Of a DNA stretch of 64,000 nucleotides, positions 1,210-61,206 are shown piece after piece (within the stretch, counting starts at the first letter, position 1; the number at the start of each line of letters is the position of its first letter). The translations under genes and the position numbers were made by a program. Source of the DNA: an uncultured Desulfatitalea sp. (GTDB taxonomy: Bacteria > Desulfobacterota > Desulfobacteria > Desulfobacterales > Desulfosarcinaceae); contig CALMNL010000011.1 of the NCBI GenBank assembly GCA_937868765.1, forward strand, positions 186,001-250,000. Reading direction: 5' to 3'. The notes beneath the pieces are model-generated. The model had not been told where the DNA came from and did no database searches. It worked only from the letters and a program-made list of their open reading frames with translations.

Positions 1210-2154
1210 TCACTTTTTTTCCTTCATCTCCGGTCGGGTCGATGGCGGCAGGGCCAGGGCCGGAGAGGATTCGGTATTCTGGATGACAATGGTGGTTTGT
1301 CCTTCCTCGTTCTTTTCATAGGCCGTGGCCCATTTCTGTTGGGTCAGAAACTGCAGGATGGCGTTGTCCGTGGTGCCGTCCGCACGGCCGATGCTCTTTT
1401 GCAGGGACTGGATACCGTCCACATAAGCGGCGTACAGTTTGCGGATGCGGCTGGCCTCCTGATCGGCCGCATAATTCTCCGCCTCGGCGATCAATTCACG
1501 CCGTTTCTTCTCTTCGGTGGCCTCCACCAGTTTGTCTCCGAAGCGGGTCTCCTTGAGCACGAAGCTGACGATTTCGATGCCGTATTTGCCCTCCAGGGTA
1601 GGGCCGCCCTGGTTGATGGCACGTTCTTTGAGGGCCGTGTAGATCTTGTCTTTGACCTGCTCGCGGTCTGAGATCAGCTGGTCCACCGGTTCGGCCTGGA
1701 GGAGATCCTTCACGATGCCGTCGTAATCGCCCTGCAGCAACTGCATCGGGTTCTGGTTCTGGATCGCCCAGACGTTCAGGTCGCGGATGCGATAGGTCAG
1801 CACGGCCGAGGTCCACAGGGCCACGTTGCCCTTGGAGATGATGCGCATGGGTGCTTCCTGGCCGCCCAGCAGCAGTTGCTGGTTCATCAGGGTCACTTCC
1901 TGTTCGATGCGCGTGAAAAACGGCAGGCGCACGTGCCACCCCACCTGGGTGACCGCTTCGCGCTGTCCGCCCAGGCGCTCGAGGACAACGGCGTAGTTCA
2001 TTTTGACCTTGTAGATGGTCTTGGTGGCGTACACCAGGGCCACCAGGCCATAGGCGAGGCACAAGAGGATGATCAGGCCGATGATGCGGCGCAACACCTT
2101 CTTGACGAAGGCCCGGCGAAGGAAGCGCTGTTGTTTCTGCTCAAGTTCCTCCAT
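1210..2154 (-). CDS. SPFH/band-7 (prohibitin-like) membrane protein
   Basis: This is a 314-residue protein with one N-terminal transmembrane helix (about residues 24-43). An SPFH/band-7 domain follows, then a charged helical region with EEKKRRELIAEAEN (coiled-coil, prohibitin/HflK-like). The ATG at 2154 is preceded by AAAGGAGA at good spacing; upstream in-frame codons look like noise. Members of this family form membrane-anchored rings or microdomains that hold proteases or other partners. HflK/HflC restrain FtsH; here no protease is adjacent and the next gene encodes an AAA+ ATPase, so a scaffold for that ATPase is the natural inference. The C-terminus is short, Pro/Ser-rich and ends in basic residues. 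Confidence 0.9.
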   Translation of the reverse strand: MEELEQKQQRFLRRAFVKKVLRRIIGLIILLCLAYGLVALVYATKTIYKVKMNYAVVLERLGGQREAVTQVGWHVRLPFFTRIEQEVTLMNQQLLLGGQEAPMRIISKGNVALWTSAVLTYRIRDLNVWAIQNQNPMQLLQGDYDGIVKDLLQAEPVDQLISDREQVKDKIYTALKERAINQGGPTLEGKYGIEIVSFVLKETRFGDKLVEATEEKKRRELIAEAENYAADQEASRIRKLYAAYVDGIQSLQKSIGRADGTTDNAILQFLTQQKWATAYEKNEEGQTTIVIQNTESSPALALPPSTRPEMKEKK

Positions 2155-2408
2155 ATCGTCTCCTTTGGTAGCCGATGATCGATGGTGCCGGAAAGGTTGA
2201 TGACAGGATGGATCCCGGTGGCGTTGGAGTGCCGCGATGGAACCTGCCCGATGGCGCCGCGATGGATGCAAGCATCCAAATTAGAACATAAAAGCGGCGG
2301 GCGTTCAAGGGTTGACTTGGTCCATGACTCTTTCTTATGATGTTCGACGTTGTCTGCCTGATTTTGTCGGCAGGCCTGCGCCCCCACCTTCGACGAAAGG
2401 AGAACCCT

Positions 2409-3476
2409 TTGAAAGTACTCGCCCTTAATTCGAGTCCCCGTGGTGAAGGACAGAGCAAGACCGAGCTTCTGTTGTCCCATCTGGTCCAGGGGATGCAAGC
2501 AGCCGGTGCGCAGGTGGAGGTGGTGCACCTGCGCACCCGGAAGATCAAAAACTGCATCGGGTGTTTCACCTGTTGGACCAAGACGCCGGGCATCTGCATC
2601 CACAAGGACGATATGAGCGCTACGCTCTACCCGCAGTTCCAGGCCGCCGACATGGTGGTCTACGCCACGCCGCTTTACCACTTCACGGTCAACGCCACCC
2701 TCAAGGCCTTCATCGAGCGCACCCTGCCCATGCTCCAGCCGTTTTTTGTGGAGTACCAGGGCCGGACGGTGCATCCCTTCCGCCATCCCCATCCGGCGGT
2801 GGTGATGCTTTCGGTGGCCGGGTTTCACGAACCATCGGTTTTCGATCAGCTATCTTCCTGGGCGCGTTTCATTTTCGGCAAAAAGTTGTTGGCCGAGCTC
2901 TATCGCCCCGGCGCCGAGGCGCTTACCAACAGGTACTATGCGTCAAAGGCCGAAGCGATACGGGCTGCCGCCGTCCAGGCAGGACGTGAGCTGGTGGTGC
3001 ACCAGCAGGTTTCGCCTGAGACCCTGGCGAATTGGGGGCAGACGATTGTGGACGACCCGAAAGTATGGCACACCATGGGCAACATGTTCTGGAAAAGCTG
3101 CATCGCCGAGGGGGTGACCGTCAAGGAGTTCGAGGAGCGCGGGCTTCCGCCGCGCCCCGACTCCCTGGAAAGCTTCAAGCTGCTCATGCTAATGGGATTC
3201 AACGCCGAGAAGGCCGGTGACACCCAGGCCCTGATTCAGTTCGAATTCTCGGGAGAGGTGAACGGCGCCTGCCATTTCAAGATTGCCAACGGCGCCATCC
3301 AGGCCTTTGACGGTGCGGCCGCCCAGCCCAGCGTCACGGTGCGTTCTGCCTTCGACACCTGGATGGATATCCTCACCGGCAAGGCCGACGGGCAGCAGCT
3401 GTTCCTGTCAAAGGCCTACACGGTGGAGGGTGACCTGGCCCTGCTGGTGCGTTTCGACCAGATCTTCGGGCGCTAA
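2409..3476 (+). CDS. NADPH-dependent FMN reductase-like (iron-sulfur flavoprotein type) fused to an SCP2 lipid-binding domain
   Basis: The likely start is TTG at 2409, six bases after AAAGGAG; the codons before it are not protein-like. Residues 1 to about 190 are a flavodoxin-fold NADPH-dependent FMN reductase domain (LALNSSPRGEGQSKT phosphate loop). A Cys cluster, CX2CX2CX7C, near residue 50 matches the compact motif of iron-sulfur flavoproteins, although similar cysteines occur in relatives without a cluster. The last 90 residues, with a conserved W..IL.GK...G and V.GD pattern, resemble an SCP2 sterol/acyl carrier domain. The fusion suggests redox chemistry on a lipid-like or acyl substrate. 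The gene ends one base before a convergent thioesterase gene. I do not recognise a named enzyme. Confidence 0.85.
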   Translation: MKVLALNSSPRGEGQSKTELLLSHLVQGMQAAGAQVEVVHLRTRKIKNCIGCFTCWTKTPGICIHKDDMSATLYPQFQAADMVVYATPLYHFTVNATLKAFIERTLPMLQPFFVEYQGRTVHPFRHPHPAVVMLSVAGFHEPSVFDQLSSWARFIFGKKLLAELYRPGAEALTNRYYASKAEAIRAAAVQAGRELVVHQQVSPETLANWGQTIVDDPKVWHTMGNMFWKSCIAEGVTVKEFEERGLPPRPDSLESFKLLMLMGFNAEKAGDTQALIQFEFSGEVNGACHFKIANGAIQAFDGAAAQPSVTVRSAFDTWMDILTGKADGQQLFLSKAYTVEGDLALLVRFDQIFGR

Positions 3477-3477
3477 A

Positions 3478-3933
3478 CTATCTTTCTGCTCGGCGCTTCC
3501 GGCGGATATAAAGGGCCTTGGTCACCCTGGCCACCACTTCGCCGTTTTCGTCCCTGATCTCCACCGGCAACTCGGGCAGGTACTTGCGGCCCTCGGTGGT
3601 GTTTTGCGCGATGGCATCCAGCAACGCCTGATCCACGTGGAATTCGGCCGTTACCGTGCCCTTGCCCGGCTTGATGAATTCGATGCGGGCCGACTGGTCC
3701 CACACCAGGTACTCTTTGCTCAGGATCTGGAGCAGCATCAGCATGTAGAAAGGATCGGTCATGGCATAGAGCGAACCACCGAAGTGGGTACCCACATAGT
3801 TGCGGTTATACCAGCGCATCATCATCTGGACGGTTATCCGCCGGTAGTCGGGCGAGACCGAACGCACGACGATGCCGGTGGCCCAGTAGGGCGGATAGCA
3901 GTTGAGCAGCAATTTGAAAAGTCGATGGTTCAT
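3478..3933 (-). CDS. DUF4442 / hot-dog fold acyl-CoA thioesterase-like protein
   Basis: This protein of about 151 residues matches the DUF4442 hot-dog family. It has the central helix region containing NYVGTHFGGSLYAMTDP and a later FIKPGKGTVTAEF strand, typical of thioesterase-like folds. I chose the ATG at 3933, preceded by GGGAAAGG, over a TTG at 3954 that would overlap the upstream amidase stop. It lies 21 bases downstream of the amidase on the same strand and is probably cotranscribed. The likely role is hydrolysis or binding of an acyl-CoA; substrate unknown. The N-terminus is hydrophobic but not a clear signal. Confidence 0.85.
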   Translation of the reverse strand: MNHRLFKLLLNCYPPYWATGIVVRSVSPDYRRITVQMMMRWYNRNYVGTHFGGSLYAMTDPFYMLMLLQILSKEYLVWDQSARIEFIKPGKGTVTAEFHVDQALLDAIAQNTTEGRKYLPELPVEIRDENGEVVARVTKALYIRRKRRAER

Positions 3934-5598: not shown

Positions 5599-6510
5599 AT
5601 GGCGGACATCAGGTATGACGGCAGAGTGGCGATTGTAACCGGCGCCGGTCAGGGCATCGGCCGCATGTATGCTTTGGAACTGGCCGCGCGGGGCGCCAAA
5701 GTGGTGGTTAACGATCTGGGGGCGGCCCGGGACGGCGCCGGGCAGGATCAGTCAGCGGCGGACAAGGTGGTGGCGGAGATCAAGGCCGCCGGCGGCCAAG
5801 CCGTGGCCAATTACGACTCCGTGGCGACCATGCAGGGCGGTGCCAACATCGTGCAAACCGCGGTGGATGCCTTCGGCAAGGTGGATATTCTGGTCAACAA
5901 CGCCGGGATCCTGCGGGACAAGTCGTTCCTCAAGATGAGTGAGCAGGAGTGGGACCTGGTGATCTCAGTGCATCTGAAAGGTGCTTTCTGTGTCACCCAA
6001 CCGGCCGTCAAGCTCATGAAGGCCGCCAACTACGGCCGCATCATCTTCACCAGCTCTACCTCGGGCATCTATGGCAACTTCGGGCAGTGCAACTACGGCG
6101 CCGCCAAGATGGGCCTGCTGGGCCTCATGAATTGCCTCAAGCTGGAGGTAGCCAACTACAACATCAAGGTCAATACCGTGGCGCCCACGGCTTATTCGCG
6201 CATGACCAGCGACATCTTCCCGGCCAACATGGAAGAAAAGCTCAAGCCGCAGTTCAACGCACCCATGGTGCTGTATCTGGCTTCCGAGGAAAACAGCGTC
6301 AGCGGCATGACCTTTGTCATGGGGGCCGGATGGTACGGCCGCACGGCAGTGGTTTCGGGCAACGGCGTCTGCCTCGGCGACGGCCACCGGGACATCACGC
6401 CGGAAGAGATCCACGCGCAATTCAATGCCATCTCGGGGCTGGATCAGGCCAAACCCCATGCCAGCGGCACCGATATCTTCGGGTATATGGCGCCGTTGCT
6501 GGGGAAATGA
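5599..6510 (+). CDS. SDR-family 3-hydroxyacyl-CoA dehydrogenase-like protein (MFE-2 type)
   Basis: A 303-residue short-chain dehydrogenase. It has the cofactor motif TGAGQGIG at residues 14-21, NNAG at 100-103, and a catalytic Ser near 153 with Tyr166-X3-Lys170. Its extended length, and the NDLGAARDGAGQ segment after beta-2, match the (3R)-hydroxyacyl-CoA dehydrogenase unit of peroxisomal-type multifunctional enzyme 2, including the C-terminal tail after the Rossmann core. AAAGGAG lies eight bases before the ATG. It probably oxidises a 3-hydroxyacyl-CoA with NAD+, consistent with the acyl-CoA genes around it. A lipase-like gene follows after 47 bases on the same strand. Confidence 0.93.
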   Translation: MADIRYDGRVAIVTGAGQGIGRMYALELAARGAKVVVNDLGAARDGAGQDQSAADKVVAEIKAAGGQAVANYDSVATMQGGANIVQTAVDAFGKVDILVNNAGILRDKSFLKMSEQEWDLVISVHLKGAFCVTQPAVKLMKAANYGRIIFTSSTSGIYGNFGQCNYGAAKMGLLGLMNCLKLEVANYNIKVNTVAPTAYSRMTSDIFPANMEEKLKPQFNAPMVLYLASEENSVSGMTFVMGAGWYGRTAVVSGNGVCLGDGHRDITPEEIHAQFNAISGLDQAKPHASGTDIFGYMAPLLGK

Positions 6511-50225: not shown

Positions 50226-51350
50226 TCAGGGGTGCGGCGCCACGGTCTGCAGGTAGCTTAGAAAGTATGGGTCGGCCACTGATTCCTGATAGGCGGTCAG
50301 GGCTTCGGGGGATGAGTTGACCCTCAGGTTGCTGTAAGTTTCATCAGGGTTGGCCCAGCGTTCATGCCAGAAGACCACGGCCTTCAATCGTGGATAGTTG
50401 GTCTTGAAGCCTTTGAAGGCGTCGCGGATGAATTCCGCCTTGTTTCCCGAATTCGGGAATTCGCCCACCCCCCACTCGGCCACGATCACCGGCTTGGCCG
50501 GGTCCAGGAGGCAGAGTCGCCGATACGGTTCGTCCATCACTTGCGCGAAGCGTGTCCAGGGGTTTGCCCCAAAAAGCTTGCCATAGGCGCTGAATCCCAA
50601 CCAGTCCACATAATCCGGGCCCGGATAGTACTGGTTCATCTGGTTCCAGGGGTCATTCGGGAAGGAGTAGTTGTTGGCATGGAAGACCCACTGGATCTGC
50701 CGGGCGCCGCGCGCCCGCACGCGATCGACGACATAGCGATAGGCGCGTTTGTACAGTTCCGGCCCCGTCGGTTCTGGGGGCTGTGGGTCGCCAGGCTGCA
50801 CTTTGGCGTTGTAAAAGCAGCCGGACCAGGGAAACCAGTTGCCGTTCATTTCCAGGCCCCAGGAAACCAGCAGCGGCCGGTCGAACGCCTTGGCGCCATC
50901 GGCCCACATGTCGATATAATCGTCCCAGCGGCCGTCCAGGATGTTTTCCAGCCGGGCCTCGTCCGGGCCCCGTTCTTCCATATAGGGGCTTGTCCAAGGG
51001 GACCAGAAGATCAGGGGCAGGGCCTTGTGGCGCGTGATGAGCGCCACATTGCGCGCCGGGAAGCTCTTTTCTCCCCAGAAAGAGGCGGAGGCGATAATGG
51101 CCTGGTGTTTGCCGACCATGGTTTCGAACTGATCGATGCCCTCCAGGGTGACGTGATCCTCTTTATCGCCGAACTCGATGTAGGCGCCGGTATAGATGCC
51201 CCTGGAAGGCAGTTCCAGCCTGGCCCCCCGGGCCGCTTCCGCCGGTATCGGGCGCTTCCCGGCCGTCGGTTCGCCGCAGGCGGTCAACCCTGCCAGGAGG
51301 CATAATCCCAGCAGGCATGCGTGCCGAATTGTCTTCAGGAGACGTGTCAT
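50226..51350 (-). CDS. GH26-like glycoside hydrolase lipoprotein
   Basis: A 374-residue protein with a lipoprotein signal ending in LTAC (Cys25). A TIM-barrel hydrolase region follows. SWGLEMNGNWFPWS near residue 165 matches the acid/base motif of GH26 mannanases (HEMNG.W.PW) except that the preceding His position is Leu, and PVIVAEWGVGEFP near residue 295 carries the nucleophile Glu. GH26 includes endo-mannanases and mixed-linkage glucanases. The ATG overlaps the stop of the polysaccharide synthase gene (ATGA). It probably trims or releases the polymer made by that synthase at the cell surface. Confidence 0.87.
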   Translation of the reverse strand: MTRLLKTIRHACLLGLCLLAGLTACGEPTAGKRPIPAEAARGARLELPSRGIYTGAYIEFGDKEDHVTLEGIDQFETMVGKHQAIIASASFWGEKSFPARNVALITRHKALPLIFWSPWTSPYMEERGPDEARLENILDGRWDDYIDMWADGAKAFDRPLLVSWGLEMNGNWFPWSGCFYNAKVQPGDPQPPEPTGPELYKRAYRYVVDRVRARGARQIQWVFHANNYSFPNDPWNQMNQYYPGPDYVDWLGFSAYGKLFGANPWTRFAQVMDEPYRRLCLLDPAKPVIVAEWGVGEFPNSGNKAEFIRDAFKGFKTNYPRLKAVVFWHERWANPDETYSNLRVNSSPEALTAYQESVADPYFLSYLQTVAPHP

Positions 51351-54300
51351 GACCGATGGCCTCCGGACATGGGCACCGAGGCGGTGCGCTCCAGTTTGCC
51401 CCACCCCACCATGGCGCCCTTTATGGCCCTGGATATCGATTTCCAGACCACCCAGCCCAATAAGGGACGGTAGAGCAGCCGCATGGGCAGGCTGATCCAG
51501 GCGCGCCGCAGGGGCTCGCCCTCCAGGCCGCAGGCCAACAAGGCCAGCCCCAGGTCCATCAGCAGAAAGATCACCAGGAAGGTCCATACGGTACCGCCAA
51601 TGCCGAATAGCAATGATACTATCAGCATTAAGTCCACTATCGGCACGATGGCGACCAGCAGAATCTGGAAAAACCAGACACCCGGCAGGCTGAAAAGGGC
51701 CAGGGCCCCATAGCGCGGCTGGAACAGCAGATCCCGGTGTTTCCACAGGCATTGGAGGGTTCCAAAGGCCCAGCGGAAACGCTGACGCAGCAGGGTGGGG
51801 ATCGACTCGGGCGCCTCGGTCCAGGCCCGGGCCTGCGGCTCGTAGGTCACGCGCCAGCCGAGGCGGTGGAAGCTCAGGGTCAGGTCCGTGTCCTCGGCCA
51901 GCGTGTCGCCGCTGATGCCGCCGGCCGCCTCGACGGCATCGCGCCGCCAGGCGCTCACGGCCCCGGGCACCACCGTGATGCAGTTGAGCTGGTGATAGGC
52001 CCGGCGCTCCAGGTTGAAACCGCAGATATACTCCAGCTCCTGGCAGCGGGCGATGAAGGTACGCAGATTGCCGACCTTGACATGCCCTGATACGGCCGCC
52101 ACGCGGTCGTCCTGGAAATGGGCCACCAGCCGCTCGATGGTGTCGGGGGCGAAATGGGTGTCGGCATCCAGCGTAACGACGAGGTTGTGTCGCACTGCCG
52201 TCATGCCCTGTTGCAGGGCCGCCGCCTTGCCCTGGTTGGGCTGGCGGATGAGCCGCAGACGCGGATCGCCGTCGGCCAGGGCCTCCACCTGGGCTGCCGT
52301 GTCGTCCCGGGAGCCGTCATCCACCACTACCACCTCAATGGGCCCGGCATAGTCGGTGGCCAGCACCGTGGACAAGGTGCGGCCGATCACCTTGGCTTCA
52401 TTGTAGGCAGGTATCAGTACGCTCACCGGCGGATGAAACGCGGTTTCGGCCGACGCGTCGATTCCGCGCGGCCGGCGTCGGTGTCCGGCGGCCAGGGCCG
52501 CCACCACCATCGTGCGCAGAACCACCATCAGGGTGGCCACGATCATGAAGGCCCATACCAGCTCCTCCGTCACATGCAGCAGATTGAACGCGCTGTCGGT
52601 CACCACGCGCATCATTTGCTGCCCCTGGGGCCCGGAAACCGGCATGAGCTGCTCCGATGGCAGGTGGAGCAGGTCGCGCAACGGCACGATCCGGTCGCCG
52701 CGTTCATAGAGCCAATCGAGGATCAAGGGCAAGGCCTGCACCGTCTGGCGCCGATCGCCGCCGGCGTCGTGCATCAGGATGATGTTCCCCTCTGCTCGGC
52801 CGGTCTGGACGTTCCTGAGGATGGCGTTCACGCCCGGCCGCTTGTGGTCCTGGGTGTCGATGGTGTTGGTGACGGTCAAATAGCCCAAATCCTCGGCGAT
52901 CTTAATGGGTAGAATGTCCTCCGGAAGGGTCATGTGATTGTCCGCGCGGTAGGGCGGCCGAAACAGTACCGTGGCGTGGCCGGTGAGTTTTTCAATGAGC
53001 CGCTGGGTCGCGTTCAACTCCAGGCGGACGCGTTCGTCGGAGGCCTCCGACAGGTCGGTGTGGGTGTAGGTATGGACGCCCAATTCGTGTCCCTCGGCGT
53101 AAATGCGCCGCACGAGTTCGGGGTGCTCTTCCATTTTGCTGCCCACCATGAAGAAAGCGGCCTTGACGCCCCCGGCCTTCAAAATATCCAGGATGCGGGG
53201 GGTCCAGCGGGGATCGGGCCCGTCGTCGAACGAGAGCGCCACCGCATCTTCCGGCCCTTGACCCTGGTGCCAGACGGTGAGGTAAGCGGGAAACCGTTCA
53301 TACTGCATGGCCACCAGGCCGTTGGCCAGCTTCGTCACCTGTCGGCGACCCTCGGCCCGATCATCCGCGACGGTGAGGAACTCGCCCCGGCCGATATGGG
53401 TGGCGACATCCTCGCTGGGGATCGCCGACAATGCACCCAGATCGGAAGCCGCCAGCTCTTTTTTTTGTACCAGGCGCCAGGCGGCCCATACGCCAGGGTC
53501 CTCGCTCCCCAACGGGGATAGGGCCAGGCCGCCCACCGCTTTGCGCAGCGCGGCGCGCGCCTGGTTCAGAAAAGTACCGGCATCCAGGAACCATACTTGA
53601 TGCTCCCGGCCTGCTTCCTCGTACTCGAAGTGCGGATTCTGGGCCTCGGATTCATAATCAAAACCCGGCAGGCCCGAACGGCCGGCCCGGCTCATGGCAT
53701 CGGCAAACCCGATGACTTCGGCCCGTGTTTCGCCCTGGGCCCAATCGTAGCCATAGGCACCCACGGCCACCACCCATTGGGACGGCTGGCCATAAGCGGT
53801 TACGGTGTCCAGCCAGCCCTGGAACCATGTTTGGGAGGCCAGGGGGCCGGGGGCGTCATCTTCGCCATTCTCATCGTGCAGCAAGGCGATGAACCGGTCC
53901 ACCCAGGGGGATAGCTTTTCTAATTCGTACAGCTTGATCTCCAGGCCCATGGGAATACACAGCCACAGTTGCAGACCTTCGGCGTGCAGGGCTTGGGCCG
54001 TGTCCTGAAGCAGGGCCGTGACTTTGGCGGCATAGGTGGGATCCACCTCACCCCATTCGATGGCCACGCCGCCGGCCTCGCTCTCCTGGAGTTGTCCGAT
54101 GAGGGCGTGAATAAAGCGCATTCTGCGCTCCGGCGGACCATTGGCCAGAGATTCCACGGCCTCGGGCTGCCATACATCGCCCGTCAGGTTGCGCAACAGG
54201 GGCAACAAAGTCACGCCATGCTTGGCGGCGAGTTTCTGGATAGCCGGGTCCGGATCGGCTTGCAGACTGCCTTGACCATCCATCAGGCTGAACCATTCGG

Positions 54301-54679
54301 GGCAGACATGGGTGAACTGGTCGGCATGGCGTTCGAAGGATCGAAGGCTATTGGGGTCCCAGCTCGCCGTGAAGGCCAGACGGATGGGGGCATCATCCCG
54401 GGCGCCGGCGCTCCGGGACGGTTGCGGCATGGGACGTGCGAAACGTATCCAGAGCTGTTTGGTCGCCGACGGCGTTAATATAGTCTGTCTCTCCAGTGCC
54501 TTGAGACGCGCCTGGAACGCGGGCGGTGTCAGGCGGGGCATGACGAGCAGGGCGCGCACAAATAGAATGGCGCCGACGAACAGCACGATAATCAGCAGGA
54601 GCAGCATCTGGCGCATTTTAGGCCAGCGCTTGCCGACGGGGTCCAGGAAGACGAAACGGTTCTTATTGCCTTGGTTCAT
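51347..54679 (-). CDS. Three-domain polysaccharide synthase: GH18-like, NodB deacetylase, GT2 glycosyltransferase
   Basis: A 1110-residue inner-membrane protein. TM1 is at about 26-47. A TIM-barrel GH18-like domain spans about 98-400 with a degenerate GVAIEWGEV in place of the DxDxE catalytic core. NodB deacetylase spans about 475-675 with SFDDGPD (Asp485, Asp486), HTYTH (His536, His540) and RPPYR. A second helix is at about 708-730. GT2 runs about 750-990 with DDGS (787-790), DAD (838-840), AEDTD and QRFRW. C-terminal helices complete it. It is coupled to the GH26-like gene by an ATGA overlap. It likely polymerises and deacetylates a hexosamine-type polymer; the GH18-like part may guide the chain. 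Confidence 0.92.
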   Translation of the reverse strand: MNQGNKNRFVFLDPVGKRWPKMRQMLLLLIIVLFVGAILFVRALLVMPRLTPPAFQARLKALERQTILTPSATKQLWIRFARPMPQPSRSAGARDDAPIRLAFTASWDPNSLRSFERHADQFTHVCPEWFSLMDGQGSLQADPDPAIQKLAAKHGVTLLPLLRNLTGDVWQPEAVESLANGPPERRMRFIHALIGQLQESEAGGVAIEWGEVDPTYAAKVTALLQDTAQALHAEGLQLWLCIPMGLEIKLYELEKLSPWVDRFIALLHDENGEDDAPGPLASQTWFQGWLDTVTAYGQPSQWVVAVGAYGYDWAQGETRAEVIGFADAMSRAGRSGLPGFDYESEAQNPHFEYEEAGREHQVWFLDAGTFLNQARAALRKAVGGLALSPLGSEDPGVWAAWRLVQKKELAASDLGALSAIPSEDVATHIGRGEFLTVADDRAEGRRQVTKLANGLVAMQYERFPAYLTVWHQGQGPEDAVALSFDDGPDPRWTPRILDILKAGGVKAAFFMVGSKMEEHPELVRRIYAEGHELGVHTYTHTDLSEASDERVRLELNATQRLIEKLTGHATVLFRPPYRADNHMTLPEDILPIKIAEDLGYLTVTNTIDTQDHKRPGVNAILRNVQTGRAEGNIILMHDAGGDRRQTVQALPLILDWLYERGDRIVPLRDLLHLPSEQLMPVSGPQGQQMMRVVTDSAFNLLHVTEELVWAFMIVATLMVVLRTMVVAALAAGHRRRPRGIDASAETAFHPPVSVLIPAYNEAKVIGRTLSTVLATDYAGPIEVVVVDDGSRDDTAAQVEALADGDPRLRLIRQPNQGKAAALQQGMTAVRHNLVVTLDADTHFAPDTIERLVAHFQDDRVAAVSGHVKVGNLRTFIARCQELEYICGFNLERRAYHQLNCITVVPGAVSAWRRDAVEAAGGISGDTLAEDTDLTLSFHRLGWRVTYEPQARAWTEAPESIPTLLRQRFRWAFGTLQCLWKHRDLLFQPRYGALALFSLPGVWFFQILLVAIVPIVDLMLIVSLLFGIGGTVWTFLVIFLLMDLGLALLACGLEGEPLRRAWISLPMRLLYRPLLGWVVWKSISRAIKGAMVGWGKLERTASVPMSGGHRS

Positions 54680-55039: not shown

Positions 55040-55134
55040 TGGGACGTGCCTGGCTCAGCGGGGCCATCGACTGCCTGGTGATGGGTTTGTTTCTGGCCAT
55101 GAGCGTGGGGCTGACCTTGATCATGTGGCACTGA
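55039..55134 (+). CDS. 31-residue single-helix membrane microprotein, candidate
   Basis: The ATG at 55039 overlaps the stop of the 59-residue gene in a TGATG junction and encodes 31 residues: a short N-terminus, then a hydrophobic helix (about 9-29, CLVMGLFLAMSVGLTLIM) and a final TrpHis. The tight overlap suggests translational coupling. The last 14 bases overlap the 3' end of the convergent sensor kinase gene. No homologue family is known to me, so this is a prediction. Confidence 0.5.
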   Translation: MGRAWLSGAIDCLVMGLFLAMSVGLTLIMWH

Positions 55135-57025
55135 GGGGCAGGCTCACGGTGATGGTGCAGCCGGGACCGGCGTTGTTGGCGGCTGTCACACGACCGCCCA
55201 TGGCCTGGGTGAGCTTGCGCACCAGGGCCAGACCGATACCGGTACCGCTGGTGGTGCGAGTCAAGGCGTTGTCGGCGCGATAAAAGTCGTCGAAGATTTT
55301 CTTGAGGGCGCCCCTGGCGATGCCCGGGCCGGTGTCGGCCACGGCGATCTGCACCTCGGCTTGCACCACCCGGGCGCTGACCGTGATATGTCGCTGGGCT
55401 TCGTTGCGGCCGAACTTGATGCTGTTCTCCACCAGGTTGATCAGAATCTGGAGCAAAGCTTCGCGGTCGAAAGCAAAATCGGGCAGGCCGTCGGCCTGGA
55501 ATATCAGCTCGAACCCGTCCTGGCCCAGTTTGGGCGCCATGACGGCGCGCACCTCGGCCAGCAGGTCCGCCAGCCGCCCCGGCTGCATGTGCACCGGCCG
55601 CTGCTTTTTCTCCAGGCGCGAAAGCTCCAATACATTGTTAATCAGGCGGGAGAGCCGGGCGCTCTCGGACCCGATGATCCCCAGGTAGGTCTGCTCCCGC
55701 TCGGGGGTGGCGGCGATGCCCTGCTCGAGCATCTCCACGTACATGCGGATGTTGGTCAGGGGTGTCTTCAGCTCGTGCGTGACGGCCGAAACGAACTGGG
55801 AGCGCCGCTCGGAGAGCGCCACCACGGCCCGCACGCTCTGGTAGATGGCCAGCAAGCCGAGGACCACGATGGCCCCCAGGGCGATGAGCGCCGCGTGCAG
55901 CATCCGCCGGGCCGCCGAGGCCGGCGCGCCGTTGCCGGACACCGAGGCATGGATGAAATTGAATGGGGCCGGAAAGGTACGCGCCGCCACGATCGGCTCC
56001 ACTTCCGGTGCCGGGGCGTCCGGCTGGCCGCCGCGCAGGACCGTCAGCCGCAGATGGGAAAAGCCGGCCATGGGGTGCGGATCGAAGTGCGTGCGCGCCA
56101 GGTGTTCCAGAAACGGCGCGACCTGCAGCACGAACCCCTGGCGGAAGATCCGGTCGTTGATCGCCACCCTGCGGAAAATGAAAACGCGTCCGTCATCGAT
56201 GAACACCGATTGCAGCGGGGCGATCTCCACCTGGAATCGCGGATGCGCCCCGGCCTCGACCGCCGGCCCGGCGGGAGCGCTTTCACTATCCCTGCCTGCA
56301 CTCTGCAGCCGGCGGGTCTGTTCTCTCTCTTCGCGCTGCGCCGTGGCGGAAGCCGGTGCCGGGCTGTCGGCCGCGCTGCGCTCCTTGGCGCGCCACGCCT
56401 CATCCCTGGCGACGTTGGCCGCCTGGCCTAAAGTCAACTCTTCCACCCGGACGCTTTTCTGGCCCAGGGCACCCTTGGCCGGCTTGCCCTCCGAAGGCGT
56501 CAGGTAGCGGTCGGCAAAGCTCTTCTGGGCAGGCGCCTCCTGTTTTTTTACTATCGGCGCCGGCTTTTCCGGCTCGGCGCCGGACAGCAGCGCATACTTC
56601 TTCTGGTTGAAAATGCGGTTGGCCTCCTGAAGCTGGGCCACGAGCGCCCGCCGGGAAGCGGGAACCTGCCGCAGATCATCCACCAGCGGCGTTTGCAGCG
56701 ATCCGTCGGGGTTGTTTTGGAGGTAGCCGAGGATGAACGTTTCCCGGGGTGGCTCGGCCAGAGGCGACGACTGGATCGGTTGGCCCATCGGGGCCAGCGT
56801 ATGGCCGTAGGCTTCCACCGAACGGCCCTCCTCCCGCCGCACCAGCTCGGCCAGCTCCTGCTCCATTTCATCCAGCAGGGTCTCGGCAAAAAAGCGCAAC
56901 TGGCCCAGCTCTTCCTGGGCCACGCCCGCATAGGTGCGCCAGATCACGAACGAGAGCGGCAGGCATAGTGCTGCGAAGAAGATCAAAATGTAGAGTTTGA
57001 TCCGGGTCATGGTTGTCGCCGCCAT
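55121..57025 (-). CDS. Membrane sensor histidine kinase with a long extracytoplasmic region
   Basis: A 634-residue kinase with TM1 at about 8-28, an outside region of about 350 residues, and TM2 at about 377-396. A HisKA domain follows, with phospho-His417 in SAVTHELKTPLTNIRMYVE, then an HATPase with NLVENSIKFG, ADTGPGIA and TTSGTGIGLALVRKL. In the outside region, residues about 155-255 are Ala/Glu/Arg-rich with QKSFADRYLTPSEGKPAKG, a low-complexity segment that splits two folded parts. It overlaps its regulator gene by one base (TGATG at 57025). An internal ATG at 57010 is possible. It senses an unknown envelope signal. Confidence 0.92.
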   Translation of the reverse strand: MAATTMTRIKLYILIFFAALCLPLSFVIWRTYAGVAQEELGQLRFFAETLLDEMEQELAELVRREEGRSVEAYGHTLAPMGQPIQSSPLAEPPRETFILGYLQNNPDGSLQTPLVDDLRQVPASRRALVAQLQEANRIFNQKKYALLSGAEPEKPAPIVKKQEAPAQKSFADRYLTPSEGKPAKGALGQKSVRVEELTLGQAANVARDEAWRAKERSAADSPAPASATAQREEREQTRRLQSAGRDSESAPAGPAVEAGAHPRFQVEIAPLQSVFIDDGRVFIFRRVAINDRIFRQGFVLQVAPFLEHLARTHFDPHPMAGFSHLRLTVLRGGQPDAPAPEVEPIVAARTFPAPFNFIHASVSGNGAPASAARRMLHAALIALGAIVVLGLLAIYQSVRAVVALSERRSQFVSAVTHELKTPLTNIRMYVEMLEQGIAATPEREQTYLGIIGSESARLSRLINNVLELSRLEKKQRPVHMQPGRLADLLAEVRAVMAPKLGQDGFELIFQADGLPDFAFDREALLQILINLVENSIKFGRNEAQRHITVSARVVQAEVQIAVADTGPGIARGALKKIFDDFYRADNALTRTTSGTGIGLALVRKLTQAMGGRVTAANNAGPGCTITVSLPLSAT

Positions 57026-57753
57026 CAAATCGGATTGTCTTGCGTTTTCTGCTTTCCGCTTTCATCCCGCCAGCGATAACCCTCGCCGCGGACGGTCTCG
57101 ATCAGGCCATGGGCCTCATTCAACAAATTGAGCTTCTTGCGCAGCTTGAGCAGGTGGATATCCACGGTGCGGGTTTCAATGGCGCCGTCCACATAGTGCC
57201 ATACCTCGGTGAGCAGCTCGCTCTTGGGCACGATGCGCGCCTGGTGACGGTGCAGGTAGGCCAGGATATCCATCTCCCGCCGGGTCAGCTCCTGGACCTG
57301 GGTACCGCAGGTGGCCCGCAGGTTGCGGCCGTCGAAGCGCATCTCCCCGTACTGGATGCACTCTTCCCCCAGGGGCTTGCCGCTGCGCCGCAGCACCGCC
57401 TCCACCCGTACCATCAGTTCGCGCAGGGAGAACGGTTTGCTGACATAGTCATCGGCGCCGGCCTTGAAACCGGTGACCACATCCGCTTCGGCACCCTTGG
57501 CCGTGAGCATGATGATCGCCTGGGTCGGTCTGTCGCGCCGCAACTGCTTGCAGATGGAAAAACCGTCCATGGTGGGCAGCATCACATCCAGCAGCACCAG
57601 ATCGTAGCCGCCGGATCGCGCCGCCGCCAGTCCCTGGCCGCCGTCGGCGGCTCCGTCGGCGGCATAGCCGTTGAACACGAGCAGATCCTGCAATCCTTGC
57701 AGAATGGCCGGGTCGTCCTCGACCACCAGAATACGGGCTTTGGGATGCTTCAC
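57025..57753 (-). CDS. OmpR-family response regulator
   Basis: A 242-residue regulator with acidic pocket VVEDDPAI, phospho-Asp in LVLLDVMLPTMDG near residue 50 and Lys in DDYVSKPFSL, then a winged helix with LTRREMDILAYLHRHQARIVPKSELLTEVW and RTVDIHLLKLRKKL. I chose GTG at 57753, with AGGAG five bases upstream; a TTG further up has none. It is coupled with the kinase gene and divergent from the VWA operon. Tandem repeats at 57825-57846 are candidate binding sites. Confidence 0.94.
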   Translation of the reverse strand: MKHPKARILVVEDDPAILQGLQDLLVFNGYAADGAADGGQGLAAARSGGYDLVLLDVMLPTMDGFSICKQLRRDRPTQAIIMLTAKGAEADVVTGFKAGADDYVSKPFSLRELMVRVEAVLRRSGKPLGEECIQYGEMRFDGRNLRATCGTQVQELTRREMDILAYLHRHQARIVPKSELLTEVWHYVDGAIETRTVDIHLLKLRKKLNLLNEAHGLIETVRGEGYRWRDESGKQKTQDNPI

Positions 57754-57824
57754 ACGCGGGCTCCTAGCTTGCACGGTTCACTATCAGTGGCCCCAGCCTA
57801 CACCATGGCGCCCCCTGCCGCAAA

Positions 57825-57846
57825 GTAAAAGTTGTGTAAAAAGTGA
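57825..57846. promoter_or_regulatory. Tandem direct repeats, candidate OmpR-type response-regulator box
   Basis: GTAAAAGTTGT (57825-57835) is followed directly by GTAAAAAGTGA (57836-57846), an 11-base period as seen in PhoB/OmpR-type tandem sites. It lies between the divergent response-regulator gene and the VWA operon, about 100 bases before the latter's start codon. The match is to repeat geometry, not to a known consensus. Confidence 0.5.
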
Positions 57847-57947
57847 CTCCTAACCTTTTGCAATCCTTTGAATTGTCTTTACGGTCGGCTTTTGTAGAAT
57901 CGGCCCCAGCAAGCGATAAAAAACATTCCGAAGGAAAGGAGCAGAAC

Positions 57948-59369
57948 ATGCGGACATACAAAAAGGGTTTGATCGTTATCGTGGCGTTGATTGCAGTGAC
58001 CAGTGCGGCCCTGGCGATGATCGGCGCCGGGTCGTCGATGGGCGGCGCGGACCGGGCCGGTGGACAGGTCGGCGACCAGCGGCTCATGGTGGACACCACC
58101 CTGGCCCAGGACAAAGTGCTTAAAGGATCGGATGGCCGGGTGGCCCTGGCCCTGGCCCTGACGGCTGCGACCCTGCCCGAATTGCGGGAGAAAACGGTCC
58201 AGCCGGTGGACCTGGCCATCGTCCTGGATCGCAGCGGTTCCATGCAGGGAGCCAAAATCGAGGCGGCCCGCCTGGCTGTCCTGCGGCTGATGGAACGGCT
58301 CGGACCCCGGGATCGGCTGGCCCTGGTGACTTACTCGGACGGCGTGCAGCTGGTGGCGCCGTTGACCGCCATGGATGAAGGCAGCCGCCATCGCTTGATG
58401 GGGATCGTCGACCAGATCTTTGCCGACGGCAACACCAACCTGGGCGGCGGGCTGCGCCAGGGCATCGATCTGTTCATGGGGGCGCCGGCTGCGGATCGTC
58501 AGCGCAAGGTGATCCTCATCTCCGACGGCCTGGCCAATCAGGGGATCACCGATCCCGTGGCCCTGGGACAAATAGCCGCGGCGGCCACCGACCACCATTT
58601 TGCGGTGAGCACCGTGGGGGTCGGGCTCGATTTCAACGAACTTCTCATGACCACCATCGCCGACCAGGGCACGGGCCGCTACTACTTTCTGGAAGATCCC
58701 ATGGTCTTCGCCCAGGTGTTCGAAAAAGAGTTCCAGCAGGCCCGCCAGGTGGCGGCTTCCGGCGTGGTGCTGCGCATCCCCCTGGAAAAAGGCGTCACTT
58801 TGACCGCCGCCGGCGGATACCCCATCCGGTTGGAAGGCGACCTGGCCGTGATCCCCATCGGCAATCTGGTTTCCGGCGAGGCGCGCAAGCTCTTCCTCAA
58901 CTTTCAAGTGCCCACCGACCAGGCGCGCACCTTTGCCCTGGGGAAAATCGAGCTGCGCTATGACCGCGGCGGCCAGGAACAGATTCTGGCGGGCTTGCCT
59001 GCCTTGACCGTGGCCTGCGTCGACAATCCCCAGGCGGTCGTGGCCAGCGTGGACAAGGATACCTGGGGCGAGCAGGTGGTGCGCGACGAATACAATCAGC
59101 TCAAAGAAGAGGTGGCCGAAGAGGTGCGCAAGGGCGATGCCCAGGCCGCGCAGCGGCGCATCCAGAGCTATGAAGCCCGCAACCGCAGCCTGAATGCCCA
59201 GGTGGGCTCGGCGGCCGTGAGCGATCACCTGGAGAATGAGGTGAAGCGTCTGCGCCAGAGTGTGAGCGAAACCTTCGCCGGCCCGCCGGCCGCCGTGGCC
59301 GCCAAGCAGAAGCAGACTTCCAAGGCGCTGCAGTACGAGAGCTATCAGGAGCGGCGGGACAAGAAATAG
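57948..59369 (+). CDS. VWA-domain membrane-anchored protein
   Basis: A 473-residue protein with an N-terminal signal or anchor helix (about 7-26) and a von Willebrand factor A domain with an intact metal-binding DxSxS (residues 94-98) and TYSDGVQ, then SDGLANQG. A beta-rich domain (about 265-360) and a C-terminal coil ending in KQTSKALQYESYQERRDKK follow. AAAGGAG precedes the ATG at 57948. It is extracytoplasmic if the signal is used. VWA proteins often work with AAA ATPases; none is here, and the next genes encode a PspA-like protein and a membrane protein. Confidence 0.9.
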   Translation: MRTYKKGLIVIVALIAVTSAALAMIGAGSSMGGADRAGGQVGDQRLMVDTTLAQDKVLKGSDGRVALALALTAATLPELREKTVQPVDLAIVLDRSGSMQGAKIEAARLAVLRLMERLGPRDRLALVTYSDGVQLVAPLTAMDEGSRHRLMGIVDQIFADGNTNLGGGLRQGIDLFMGAPAADRQRKVILISDGLANQGITDPVALGQIAAAATDHHFAVSTVGVGLDFNELLMTTIADQGTGRYYFLEDPMVFAQVFEKEFQQARQVAASGVVLRIPLEKGVTLTAAGGYPIRLEGDLAVIPIGNLVSGEARKLFLNFQVPTDQARTFALGKIELRYDRGGQEQILAGLPALTVACVDNPQAVVASVDKDTWGEQVVRDEYNQLKEEVAEEVRKGDAQAAQRRIQSYEARNRSLNAQVGSAAVSDHLENEVKRLRQSVSETFAGPPAAVAAKQKQTSKALQYESYQERRDKK

Positions 59370-59421
59370 ACTGAAGAGTGTATGTCGAAAATTGAAGAGG
59401 ACAGGCAAAGGAGAAACACCA

Positions 59422-59982
59422 ATGGCGATCATGACGCGGTTGTTACGGCTGTGGAAAGCGGATTTGCACGGGGTGATGGATCAGCTCGAGGACAAGGCCT
59501 TGCTGCTCAAGCAGTGCCTGCGGGAGATGGAGGGCAGCCTGCACCAGAAGCAGGCGCGCCTTGCGCAGCTGCAAGGGCTCCGGGAGCAGCTGGGCAGGGA
59601 TCAGGCGACGCGCCTTCAGGAGCGGGAGCGGCTGGAGGCCGACATTGCCCTGGCCGTGCGCAAGGAGAAAGACGAAATCGCCCGCATGCTGATCCGCAAA
59701 CGCATGCTGCTGGAGGCGGCCCACGCGCAATTGGAAGGCCGGCGGCGCCATCTGGAAGAAGAGGCCCAGCGCCTGGCCCAGACGATCTCAGAACAGCAGG
59801 GCCGCTACGAACAGCTCAAGATAAAGGCGGCGGCCTGCTGTCAGCAGGCCGAAGCGCGCACAACGGAAGAAGCCGCCCCGGCGTGGGACGCATCGGCCGG
59901 TTCCACCCCGGCCACCGAGGCGGAGGTGGAACTGGAGCTGATGCGCCGCAAGGAGGCCTTGGGCCAGGGAGGTGCCCCATGA
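59422..59982 (+). CDS. PspA/IM30-like coiled-coil protein
   Basis: A 186-residue helical protein with a PspA/IM30-like layout: short basic N-terminus (MTRLLRLWKADLHGVMDQLEDKALLLKQCLREME) then long charged coiled coil (about 35-145) and an acidic tail. It is shorter than PspA (about 220), with an Ala/Pro linker near residue 150. AAAGGAG precedes the ATG. It overlaps the membrane-protein gene by four bases and follows the VWA gene by 52. It probably binds the inner membrane and buffers damage, with the divergent two-component system as regulator. Confidence 0.85.
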   Translation: MAIMTRLLRLWKADLHGVMDQLEDKALLLKQCLREMEGSLHQKQARLAQLQGLREQLGRDQATRLQERERLEADIALAVRKEKDEIARMLIRKRMLLEAAHAQLEGRRRHLEEEAQRLAQTISEQQGRYEQLKIKAAACCQQAEARTTEEAAPAWDASAGSTPATEAEVELELMRRKEALGQGGAP

Positions 59983-60515
59983 ATCGACCCATTCGCACGA
60001 CGGTGGTCTTTGGCCTGATCAGCGCCCTGCTCGTCTATCCCGTGGTGGGGTTGCTGACCGGCCGCTGGGGCGGGGCCCTGGGGTTCAAGCTGGCCCTGTG
60101 GCTCGACCTGGCCATCTACAGCGCGCTGCTCGTACGCTGGAGCAAAAGCCGCCTGCTGCCGGCGTTCTTCCCCCTGGGAATTCTTTTGGCGGCGGCCTTA
60201 TGGCCCTGGAGCCGTTCAGGGTTTTTCCTATTGACGCTGGGGGTGTTGAGCTGGATTCGCAGCGGCATTTGCTTCAAGGCGCCGCCGCTGCGCCTGCTGA
60301 CCGCGGAAACCGTCGCCATGGCCGGTGGCGCCGGCCTGGTGGCCCTGCTGGGGCCCGCTTCGGCGCTGACCTGGGCTCTGGCGATCTGGCTCTTTTTCCT
60401 GGTCCAGACCTTTTACTTTTACCTCATGCCCGGCCTGGAAGAAAGAACACCTGCGCCCCATGACCAGGATGCATTTGAAGTCGCCCTGCGGGAGGCGGAA
60501 AAGCTGCTCGGCTGA
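59979..60515 (+). CDS. Membrane protein of unknown function, fourth element of a VWA/PspA-like unit
   Basis: A 178-residue membrane protein with about five hydrophobic segments (starting VVFGLISALLVYPVVGLLTG, then ALWLDLAIYSALLVRW, then FFPLGILLAAALW) and a soluble acidic tail of about 25 residues (DQDAFEVALREAEKLLG). It overlaps the PspA-like gene by an ATGA junction. I recognise no family. It likely anchors or senses membrane state for the PspA-like partner. Confidence 0.8.
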   Translation: MNRPIRTTVVFGLISALLVYPVVGLLTGRWGGALGFKLALWLDLAIYSALLVRWSKSRLLPAFFPLGILLAAALWPWSRSGFFLLTLGVLSWIRSGICFKAPPLRLLTAETVAMAGGAGLVALLGPASALTWALAIWLFFLVQTFYFYLMPGLEERTPAPHDQDAFEVALREAEKLLG

Positions 60516-60747
60516 AAGCGCCGGCGCCGGTCGTTGACAATGCGCATGAGTTCTGACATTTTGATGCGAAGTCGATTCGCCTGACTTCCGCCCGCGAACC
60601 GGCGCCGGCCGTCGTCCCATCGAGGCCATGCGTCCGGCGCTGCAGCTGCCTCGGAGCCCCCCTTACGGATGCGCTTCCGCTTTCGCAACAGGGTGAATCG
60701 GAACAGTAGAAACCCGGCAACAATCCAACCAGGCAAAAGGAGGCGTC

Positions 60748-61206
60748 ATGAAAAAAGTGCTCAGGTGGAGTGTGTGTGCTCTGTTCGTCGCAGGGATTTT
60801 CAGCGTGGCCTACGCCCAGTTCGCCAAGCCCGAGCAGGCCATCGAATACCGCCAGGGCGTGATGCTGGTCATGGCCCATCATTTTGGTCGCATCGGCGCG
60901 GTGGTCCAGGACAAGGTGCCTTTCGACAAGGCGTCCGTGGCCAAGGATGCGGAACTGGTCGCCACCCTCGCCACCTTGCCCTGGGAGGCGTTCATGGTTC
61001 CCGGCGCTGAAAAAGGCAAGACCCATCTCAAGGCCGAGGCCTTGAAGGATAAAGAGGGTTTCAAGGCCGCGGCCGATGCAACCATGGCCGAGACGGCCAA
61101 ACTGGCCCAAGTGGCCGCCGCCGGGGAACTGGATGCCATCAAAACCCAGTTCGGGGCGGTGGGCAAGTCCTGCAAGGATTGCCACGAGAAATACCGCTCC
61201 CGATAG
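60748..61206 (+). CDS. Cytochrome c' (class II c-type cytochrome)
   Basis: A 152-residue exported protein with a signal peptide (cleavage after YAQ near residue 24), a four-helix bundle pattern and a C-terminal heme motif CKDCH close to the end, as in class II cytochromes c. Mature length of about 129 is typical. AAAAGGAGG precedes the ATG. Cytochromes c' bind NO or CO, and can protect against nitrosative stress. Its usual membrane partner, a cytochrome b561, is encoded downstream on the opposite strand. Confidence 0.93.
   Translation: MKKVLRWSVCALFVAGIFSVAYAQFAKPEQAIEYRQGVMLVMAHHFGRIGAVVQDKVPFDKASVAKDAELVATLATLPWEAFMVPGAEKGKTHLKAEALKDKEGFKAAADATMAETAKLAQVAAAGELDAIKTQFGAVGKSCKDCHEKYRSR

Follow-up and report, generated by a model that had tools for sequence, protein, structure and literature searches.

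A probable dedicated extracytoplasmic stress module in Desulfobacterota: a sensor pair, a two-box operator and genes for a VWA protein, a short PspA-like protein and a six-helix membrane protein

The stretch of 64,000 nucleotides (nt) analyzed here, hereafter the window (positions 186,001 to 250,000 of contig CALMNL010000011.1, assembly GCA_937868765.1, from an uncultured Desulfatitalea sp.), contains a pair of genes for a histidine kinase (HK) and a response regulator (RR), divergent from three genes for a protein with a von Willebrand factor A domain (VWA), a short relative of PspA (PspA-like) and a membrane protein without known family (MEM). The genes and the intergenic features are as follows (lengths in amino acids, aa):

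55121-57028, (-): HK, sensor histidine kinase gene (open reading frame and Pfam; 629-635 aa, start at ATG 57010 or TTG 57028)
57025-57774, (-): RR, OmpR/PhoB-type response regulator gene (open reading frame and Pfam)
57821-57843: box 1, GTAAAA-N5-GTAAAA with a period of 11, containing most of the repeat at 57825-57846
57856-57875, (+): box 2, TTTTGCAATCCTTTGAATTG, a TTTGCA/TTTGAA repeat with a period of 10 (TTTGCA-N4-TTTGAA), inverted relative to box 1
57873-57900, (+): putative promoter of the VWA operon, TTGTCT, 16 nt, TAGAAT; the -35 element overlaps the end of box 2
57948-59369, (+): VWA protein gene (473 aa, with a signal or anchor at the N terminus, by inspection)
59422-59982, (+): short PspA/IM30-like gene, PspA-like (186 aa)
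59979-60515, (+): MEM, gene for a six-helix membrane protein without known family (178 aa)

The HK and RR genes overlap by 4 nt, the VWA and PspA-like genes are separated by 52 nt, and the PspA-like and MEM genes overlap in ATGA. A re-check of the open reading frames confirmed the gene positions of a first-pass annotation made from the sequence alone; the kinase lies outside its interval (57025-60515) and completes the set of five. The ATGA overlap and the Response_reg and Trans_reg_C domains of RR (71.4 bits for Trans_reg_C; GerE reaches 16.7 against a cut-off of 23.5) likewise bear out its description of the PspA-like and MEM genes as coupled in an operon opposite an OmpR-type pair.

The window VWA protein matches PF00092 with 76.3 bits, is 38-84% identical to the VWA proteins of the other loci described below, and has a C-terminal part that is conserved, yet without a Pfam domain above cut-off. 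Residues D94, S96, S98, T163 and D193, which we take to form the metal ion-dependent adhesion site (MIDAS), are invariant in 27/27 aligned VWA proteins, so that the metal site is intact, as had been claimed. The PspA-like protein matches PspA_IM30 (PF04012) with 39.8 bits (cut-off 33.9), and the same family is matched by all 27 aligned members (E ≤ 0.01). It is shorter than the 220-position PF04012 profile, the match stopping at profile position 173, and it measures 183-189 aa in 27 of the 28 copies, window included (the copy of locus L027 is cut). Its start and hairpin are conserved (19 of the 24 invariant columns fall within the first 36 residues) and its profile matches Vipp1/PspA chains (best E-value 5.1e-10), with an invariant lysine at the position of the proline of EDP in three aligned Vipp1/PspA chains. 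MEM had been reported as unrecognised, and it has indeed no Pfam or NCBIfam match; over 26 aligned MEM proteins Pfam returned one weak CopD and one weak FA_desaturase match (E 0.012 and 0.034), the comparison with PDB sequences gave nothing at E ≤ 1, and the fold search against the PDB gave nothing at E ≤ 0.001 (best 0.64). The predicted structure (pLDDT, a model confidence score, 79) comprises six long helices, membrane-spanning by inspection, and a C-terminal helix; R94, S95, C98, E110 and Q143 are invariant.

HK contains HisKA and HATPase_c, and two hydrophobic helices (by inspection) flank a presumably periplasmic sensor part of ~335 residues. Pfam found no HAMP domain, and over 24 HK members it returned kinase-core models and one weak Med9 match, nothing else; no NCBIfam model matched the sensor part, a portion of which has very low model confidence in the predicted structure. 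The 50 matches listed by the fold search were all kinases or kinase-containing proteins, none of them informative on the sensor.

The first-pass annotation reported 11-base tandem repeats between the divergent genes. They are present, but the units (GTAAAAGTTGT and GTAAAAAGTGA) are identical at only 8/11 positions and make up half of a two-box operator. The pattern GTAAAA-N4..6-GTAAAA occurs once in the window and in 0/100 shuffles. In all of the first 28 loci compared, two intergenic blocks were found with a start-to-start distance of always 35 nt (29 of 88 columns invariant). In the full set of distinct loci introduced below, 66 of the 67 that hold the VWA upstream region score at least 20 bits for the operator, and the next-best position elsewhere in these loci, outside the operator, scores below 0; the two boxes start exactly 35 nt apart in 64/66 loci, with L110 and L117 off by one base. 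TTGTCT-16-TAGAAT was the sole sigma-70-like match in 57700-60800, which by itself proves nothing since shuffles average 0.5 matches; a TANNNT sequence 16 nt after a TTGNNN overlapping box 2 is found in 27/28 loci. An OmpR/PhoB-type activator is expected to have a box overlapping the -35 element, and the predicted position of box 2 over the -35 of the VWA promoter is placed as for an activator.

A contig scan with the PspA-like protein, which provided the only coverage outside the phylum, identified 27 loci, whose source names are Desulfobacterales, Desulfobacteraceae, Desulfosarcina, Desulfatitalea, Desulfosediminicola, Desulfobulbaceae, Desulfocapsaceae, Syntrophobacterales, or plain Deltaproteobacteria/Proteobacteria. 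The MEM profile was found in 5/395 sampled genomes of the phylum and 58/291 of the order, which indicates a patchy distribution of the module, centred on its own order. Desulfosarcina widdelii (L008), D. alkanivorans (L012) and Desulfosediminicola flagellatus (L010) are among the named species that have it. With 59 further stretches the set grew to 87 loci, 73 of them distinct (MEM identity < 95%), window included (labels: L, locus; G, genome; G000, the window's own genome); many of the compared genomes are metagenome-assembled genomes (MAGs). All five genes and the operator, in identical order and orientation, are present in 46 of the 73 distinct loci, which upholds the conservation of the five-gene layout, a point set beforehand as refutable. 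Everything except PspA-like is found in three loci (L124, L127, L129), and VWA, PspA-like, MEM and the operator sequence without an adjacent pair in ten; four are cut by contig ends and consistent as far as readable (L005, L018, L027, L105), two have the five genes with insertions (L115, L116) and one is decayed (L092, with RR internally deleted, by eye). The remaining seven are without a visible operator (L091, L132, L135, L106, L097, L126, L099): VWA is not seen in the first four, L097 and L126 break off at it, and L099, the only one holding the VWA upstream region, has a broken VWA. The existence of modules without PspA-like argues that VWA, MEM and the pair form the constant core, to which PspA-like does not belong.

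A YfbK-type gene is inserted between the operator and VWA in L115 (genome G389, 2037-3722; Pfam: vWF_A, VWA, YfbK_C) and L116 (G036, 1442-3241), which places two VWA genes behind the operator; HK lies ~0.8-1.2 kb beyond RR in both loci, and in G036 an unrelated gene is also found between RR and HK. In L006 (2711-4161), from a Desulfosarcina MAG, VWA is split over two frames by a frameshift or an assembly error. The window's own genome encodes a second PspA_IM30 protein of ~250 aa (L028, G000:C10:111658-112320), next to an ATPase-like gene (by eye).

In the window's own genome box 1 has a single site without mismatch, and allowing up to 3 mismatches adds one place, no more than the reversed pattern does; the operator model gave one further match (E-value 4.5e-6) and a third. 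A search of 57 module genomes for the exact box-1 pattern gave 47 matches in 46 of them (reversed control: 3). Of the 47, 41 are within 6 kb of MEM, two next to VWA and RR on a different contig (G588, G468), two at moved RR genes (G524, G414), one at a moved HK gene (G497) and one at a gene for a macroglobulin (G471). Box 2 has 52 matches in 48 genomes (reversed control: 0), 47 within 6 kb of MEM, one beside VWA (G468) and four at other genes.

The ten operator-bearing loci without an adjacent pair are L022, L026, L098, L100, L102, L104, L112, L113, L125 and L131. An RR ortholog is found elsewhere in 9 of the 10 genomes (E-value 8.5e-64 or better, 61-66% identity), with a match of more than 600 bits to the HK profile beside it in 6/9. 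The moved RR genes of G524, G546, G414 and G452 carry box 1 (22.9-32.6 bits) and no box 2 or a remnant of it, and in G497 box 1 is found at an HK gene that moved on its own (879.9 bits to the HK profile); as the contig of G460 ends short of the region upstream of RR, this amounts to 5/8 testable genomes. On the VWA side of the ten loci, box 2 retains 33-38 bits throughout, whereas box 1 is at or below 20 bits in G524, G546, G460, G497, G458, G414 and G452 and at 34-41 bits in G428, G442 and L026. The migration of box 1 with RR or HK and the retention of box 2 at VWA are expected if box 1 serves RR/HK and box 2 the VWA operon under one regulator, and box 1 is likely the site of the RR-HK promoter. 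The few sites in the own genome support the earlier proposal that the sensor pair is dedicated to the module. The operator in 66/67 loci, the RR orthologs in pair-less genomes and box 1 at the moved genes speak for the repeats as the putative site of RR.

We also ran a 62-nt operator sequence model over the 57 genomes. Apart from the module itself and the moved RR genes, the model matched ten sites at (rough) E-values ≤ 1e-3, nine of them upstream of genes for apparently exported proteins (judged by inspection from a signal-like N-terminal segment). Four of these nine genes encode a second VWA protein (VWA_4; G551, G646, G567, G453) and three encode alpha-2-macroglobulin-like proteins (G567, G632, G507); the other two encode a YkuD protein nearest YafK/DpaA (G567; 241.2 bits, cut-off 365) and, in the own genome, an ARPP-1 protein (190.2 bits; G000:C7, L221 2083-3123). 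The one match without a clear exported target is G551:C171 (E-value 8.6e-4). A box-1-only site lies upstream of the macroglobulin gene of G471, and the weaker matches in G413, G452:C106, G458:C121 and G532:C111 (E > 1e-3) were dismissed as spurious by eye. A TANNNT -10 element at exactly 16 nt, a feature outside the model, accompanies 6/9 exported-target sites vs 0.8% of positions generally; the spacing is 17 at G000:C7 and G567:C115, and no -10 was seen at G567:C80. VWA_4 is tied to the module independently, as in G649 (L011) its gene, interrupted by a run of N, comes fourth in the module operon, after MEM. The four closest stand-alone VWA_4 relatives (61-100% identical to the query, itself one of the four) carry the operator, and a 45%-identical relative in G414 has none. 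The off-module sites and the module look like a dedicated envelope regulon. Comparison of the loci thus provides an apparent operator, its promoter geometry, a shared layout, a regulon of few predicted targets and a trans arrangement of the sensor pair.

These observations make it probable that the module is a dedicated extracytoplasmic stress unit, in which RR would switch VWA, PspA-like and MEM. By analogy with its family, HK would sense an envelope condition through its own periplasmic domain and phosphorylate RR, which would then bind the two head-to-head boxes in the divergent intergenic region, activating VWA, PspA-like and MEM from box 2 over the -35 element and autoregulating RR-HK from box 1. 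In some species RR may also turn on other exported envelope proteins via operator copies. The products would act jointly at the inner membrane, the exported metal-site VWA protein and the six-helix MEM forming the constant core, and PspA-like serving as a frequent, dispensable cytoplasmic helper; PspA-like proteins are relatives of the membrane-coating ESCRT-III-type proteins. What we infer is that RR binds and activates, which kind of signal is read, and that the products form a complex and repair the envelope. The first-pass annotation proposed a dedicated membrane-damage response with its own sensor: the dedicated pair stands, but membrane damage is only a possible signal. The regulon points equally to the periplasm and the cell wall, and three modules that are complete in all else lack PspA-like, the one real hint of such damage.

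Several observations weigh against the stress unit. PspA-like is missing in L124, L127 and L129, and its profile also finds no member in L126 and the decayed L092. The L026 genome (CP070692.1; operator at 6268) keeps both boxes, and it has no RR ortholog, the best match being 44% identical; the assembly may be incomplete or a different regulator may act there. No box 1 is found near the moved RR genes of G428, G442, G458 and G497, and the operator score of L112 (22.7) comes from box 2 only. RR at E ≤ 1e-50 is absent in 5 of the 20 genomes searched; G550 shows only MEM, VWA is broken in G564 and the locus is decayed in G457, and it is G598 and G582 (92% and 85% complete, contigs cut), with VWA and MEM fragments and no RR found, that count here. 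The ARPP-1 genes of seven other genomes examined have no operator, and ARPP-1 was rejected as a general regulon member (operator at 1/8 loci, that of the own gene only; three genomes with weak family matches are outside this count). The E-values of the operator model are rough, and the stricter filters of its 57-genome scan lost weak matches. Finally, the sensor and MEM match nothing known.

The explanation that we rank second, though we regard it as unlikely, is a program for surface contact or adhesion, in which the exported VWA protein binds a surface, matrix or partner through its metal site, HK senses contact or the state of periplasmic proteins, and PspA-like merely buffers the membrane cost of exporting large products. 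It would account for the dominance of VWA proteins in the regulon (the module VWA, VWA_4 in four genomes and the G649 operon, the YfbK-type protein in G389 by Pfam and in G036 by eye), for the alpha-2-macroglobulin-like targets of four genomes (in one of which the site has box 1 only), and for the dispensability of PspA-like. However, Pfam found none of the module genes to be for pili or adhesin export, the constant partner is MEM and not an export machine, and the YafK-like cell-wall enzyme among the targets fits stress better. We give slightly less credence still to the response implied by the first-pass annotation, in which PspA-like is the main effector against membrane damage and VWA and MEM regulate or anchor it. 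PF04012 in 27/27 aligned members, the clustering of 19/24 invariant columns in the first 36 residues and the operon coupling to MEM through ATGA all speak for it, but L124, L127 and L129 retain VWA, MEM, the pair and the operator without PspA-like, and the protein is short, with an invariant lysine in place of the EDP proline. That the pair is a PhoR/PhoB paralog controlling a VWA operon for the uptake or storage of phosphate or another nutrient is very improbable, as the best curated matches, PnpS/PhoR for HK and PhoB for RR, are far below their cut-offs (200.5/400 and 192.1/296.2) and no transport or phosphate gene is found among the Pfam-scanned neighbours or targets.

The probable stress unit is of the same kind as the Cpx, Lia and Psp-like systems and is a member of none. 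Lia we take to be defined by the LuxR-type LiaR and a LiaF/Toastrack partner; the window RR is instead of the OmpR/PhoB type (Trans_reg_C), MEM has no LiaF, LiaI or Toastrack-type match in Pfam, and an exported VWA protein is encoded first. In common with Lia, as outlined in an excerpt of PMC9239133, is the combination of a two-component pair with a PspA-family protein and a membrane protein, a small one in LiaRS-LiaIH, where the pair drives both. The canonical Psp system (PspF-PspABC) shares a PspA/IM30 family protein, but the Pfam scan of seven proteins around the locus, to which the search was limited, found no PspB, PspC or PspF domain, and the PspA equivalog TIGR02977 scores 29.5 against 242.95 bits. 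Cpx (CpxA-CpxR) is likewise an envelope-type two-component pair with an OmpR-family regulator, a peptidoglycan enzyme is among the candidate targets here, and GTAAA-N6-GTAAA at 57825 in the window fits the CpxR consensus GTAAA-(N)4-8-GTAAA as quoted in an excerpt of PMC5063474; yet RR and HK fall well short of the cut-offs of the curated CpxR and CpxA equivalogs (124.7/341 and 112.2/486), HK has no recognised sensor domain, and the main targets are VWA, PspA-like and MEM. The proteobacterial dedicated sortase system (TIGR03787/TIGR03788) also combines a response regulator with a VWA target protein, but no sortase is present among the seven proteins scanned, and this assignment was rejected, as VWA (60.1/551.65 bits) and RR (119.7/335.7 bits) display general domain similarity only. 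An anti-phage defence role was rejected too: PADLOC returned no match for VWA or MEM, while PspA-like scored 13.8 bits to PbeC and the ATPase part of HK up to 30 bits to PDC-M43B. Outside supplements and subscription papers, we found no description of the module in the literature; the words "vwa" and "willebrand" have 0 occurrences in the main texts of PMC11237479 and PMC9239133.

Two neighbouring genes deserve mention. A cytochrome c' gene (60748-61206, (+)) lies downstream of MEM; among the 27 loci it is present only in the closest relatives, L001-L003, which places it outside the conserved module. On the other side, a frame of 1110 aa (51347-54679, (-)) reads, by eye, like a fusion of a polysaccharide deacetylase and a family 2 glycosyltransferase.

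For the envelope of Desulfobacterota, the analysis of the probable stress unit outlines from sequence alone a complete regulatory unit with a sensor, a regulator, an operator, a promoter, a core operon and a candidate regulon. It also links PspA-like to a VWA protein with a metal site and to an as yet unnamed family of membrane proteins. We speculate, while considering it unlikely in this full form, that VWA, MEM and PspA-like could constitute one envelope-spanning machine of a new type, in which a metal-dependent periplasmic VWA protein, held by MEM with its six helices, invariant polar residues and cysteine, would pass load or damage through the inner membrane to a reduced ESCRT-III-like coat. 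A pair with a new sensor domain would then adjust how much of this machine is made, along with the exported VWA, macroglobulin and cell-wall proteins. Loci that naturally lack PspA-like, or whose pair has moved, are ready tests of the role of each part, and the candidate operator may be used to seek the regulon in any sequenced relative.

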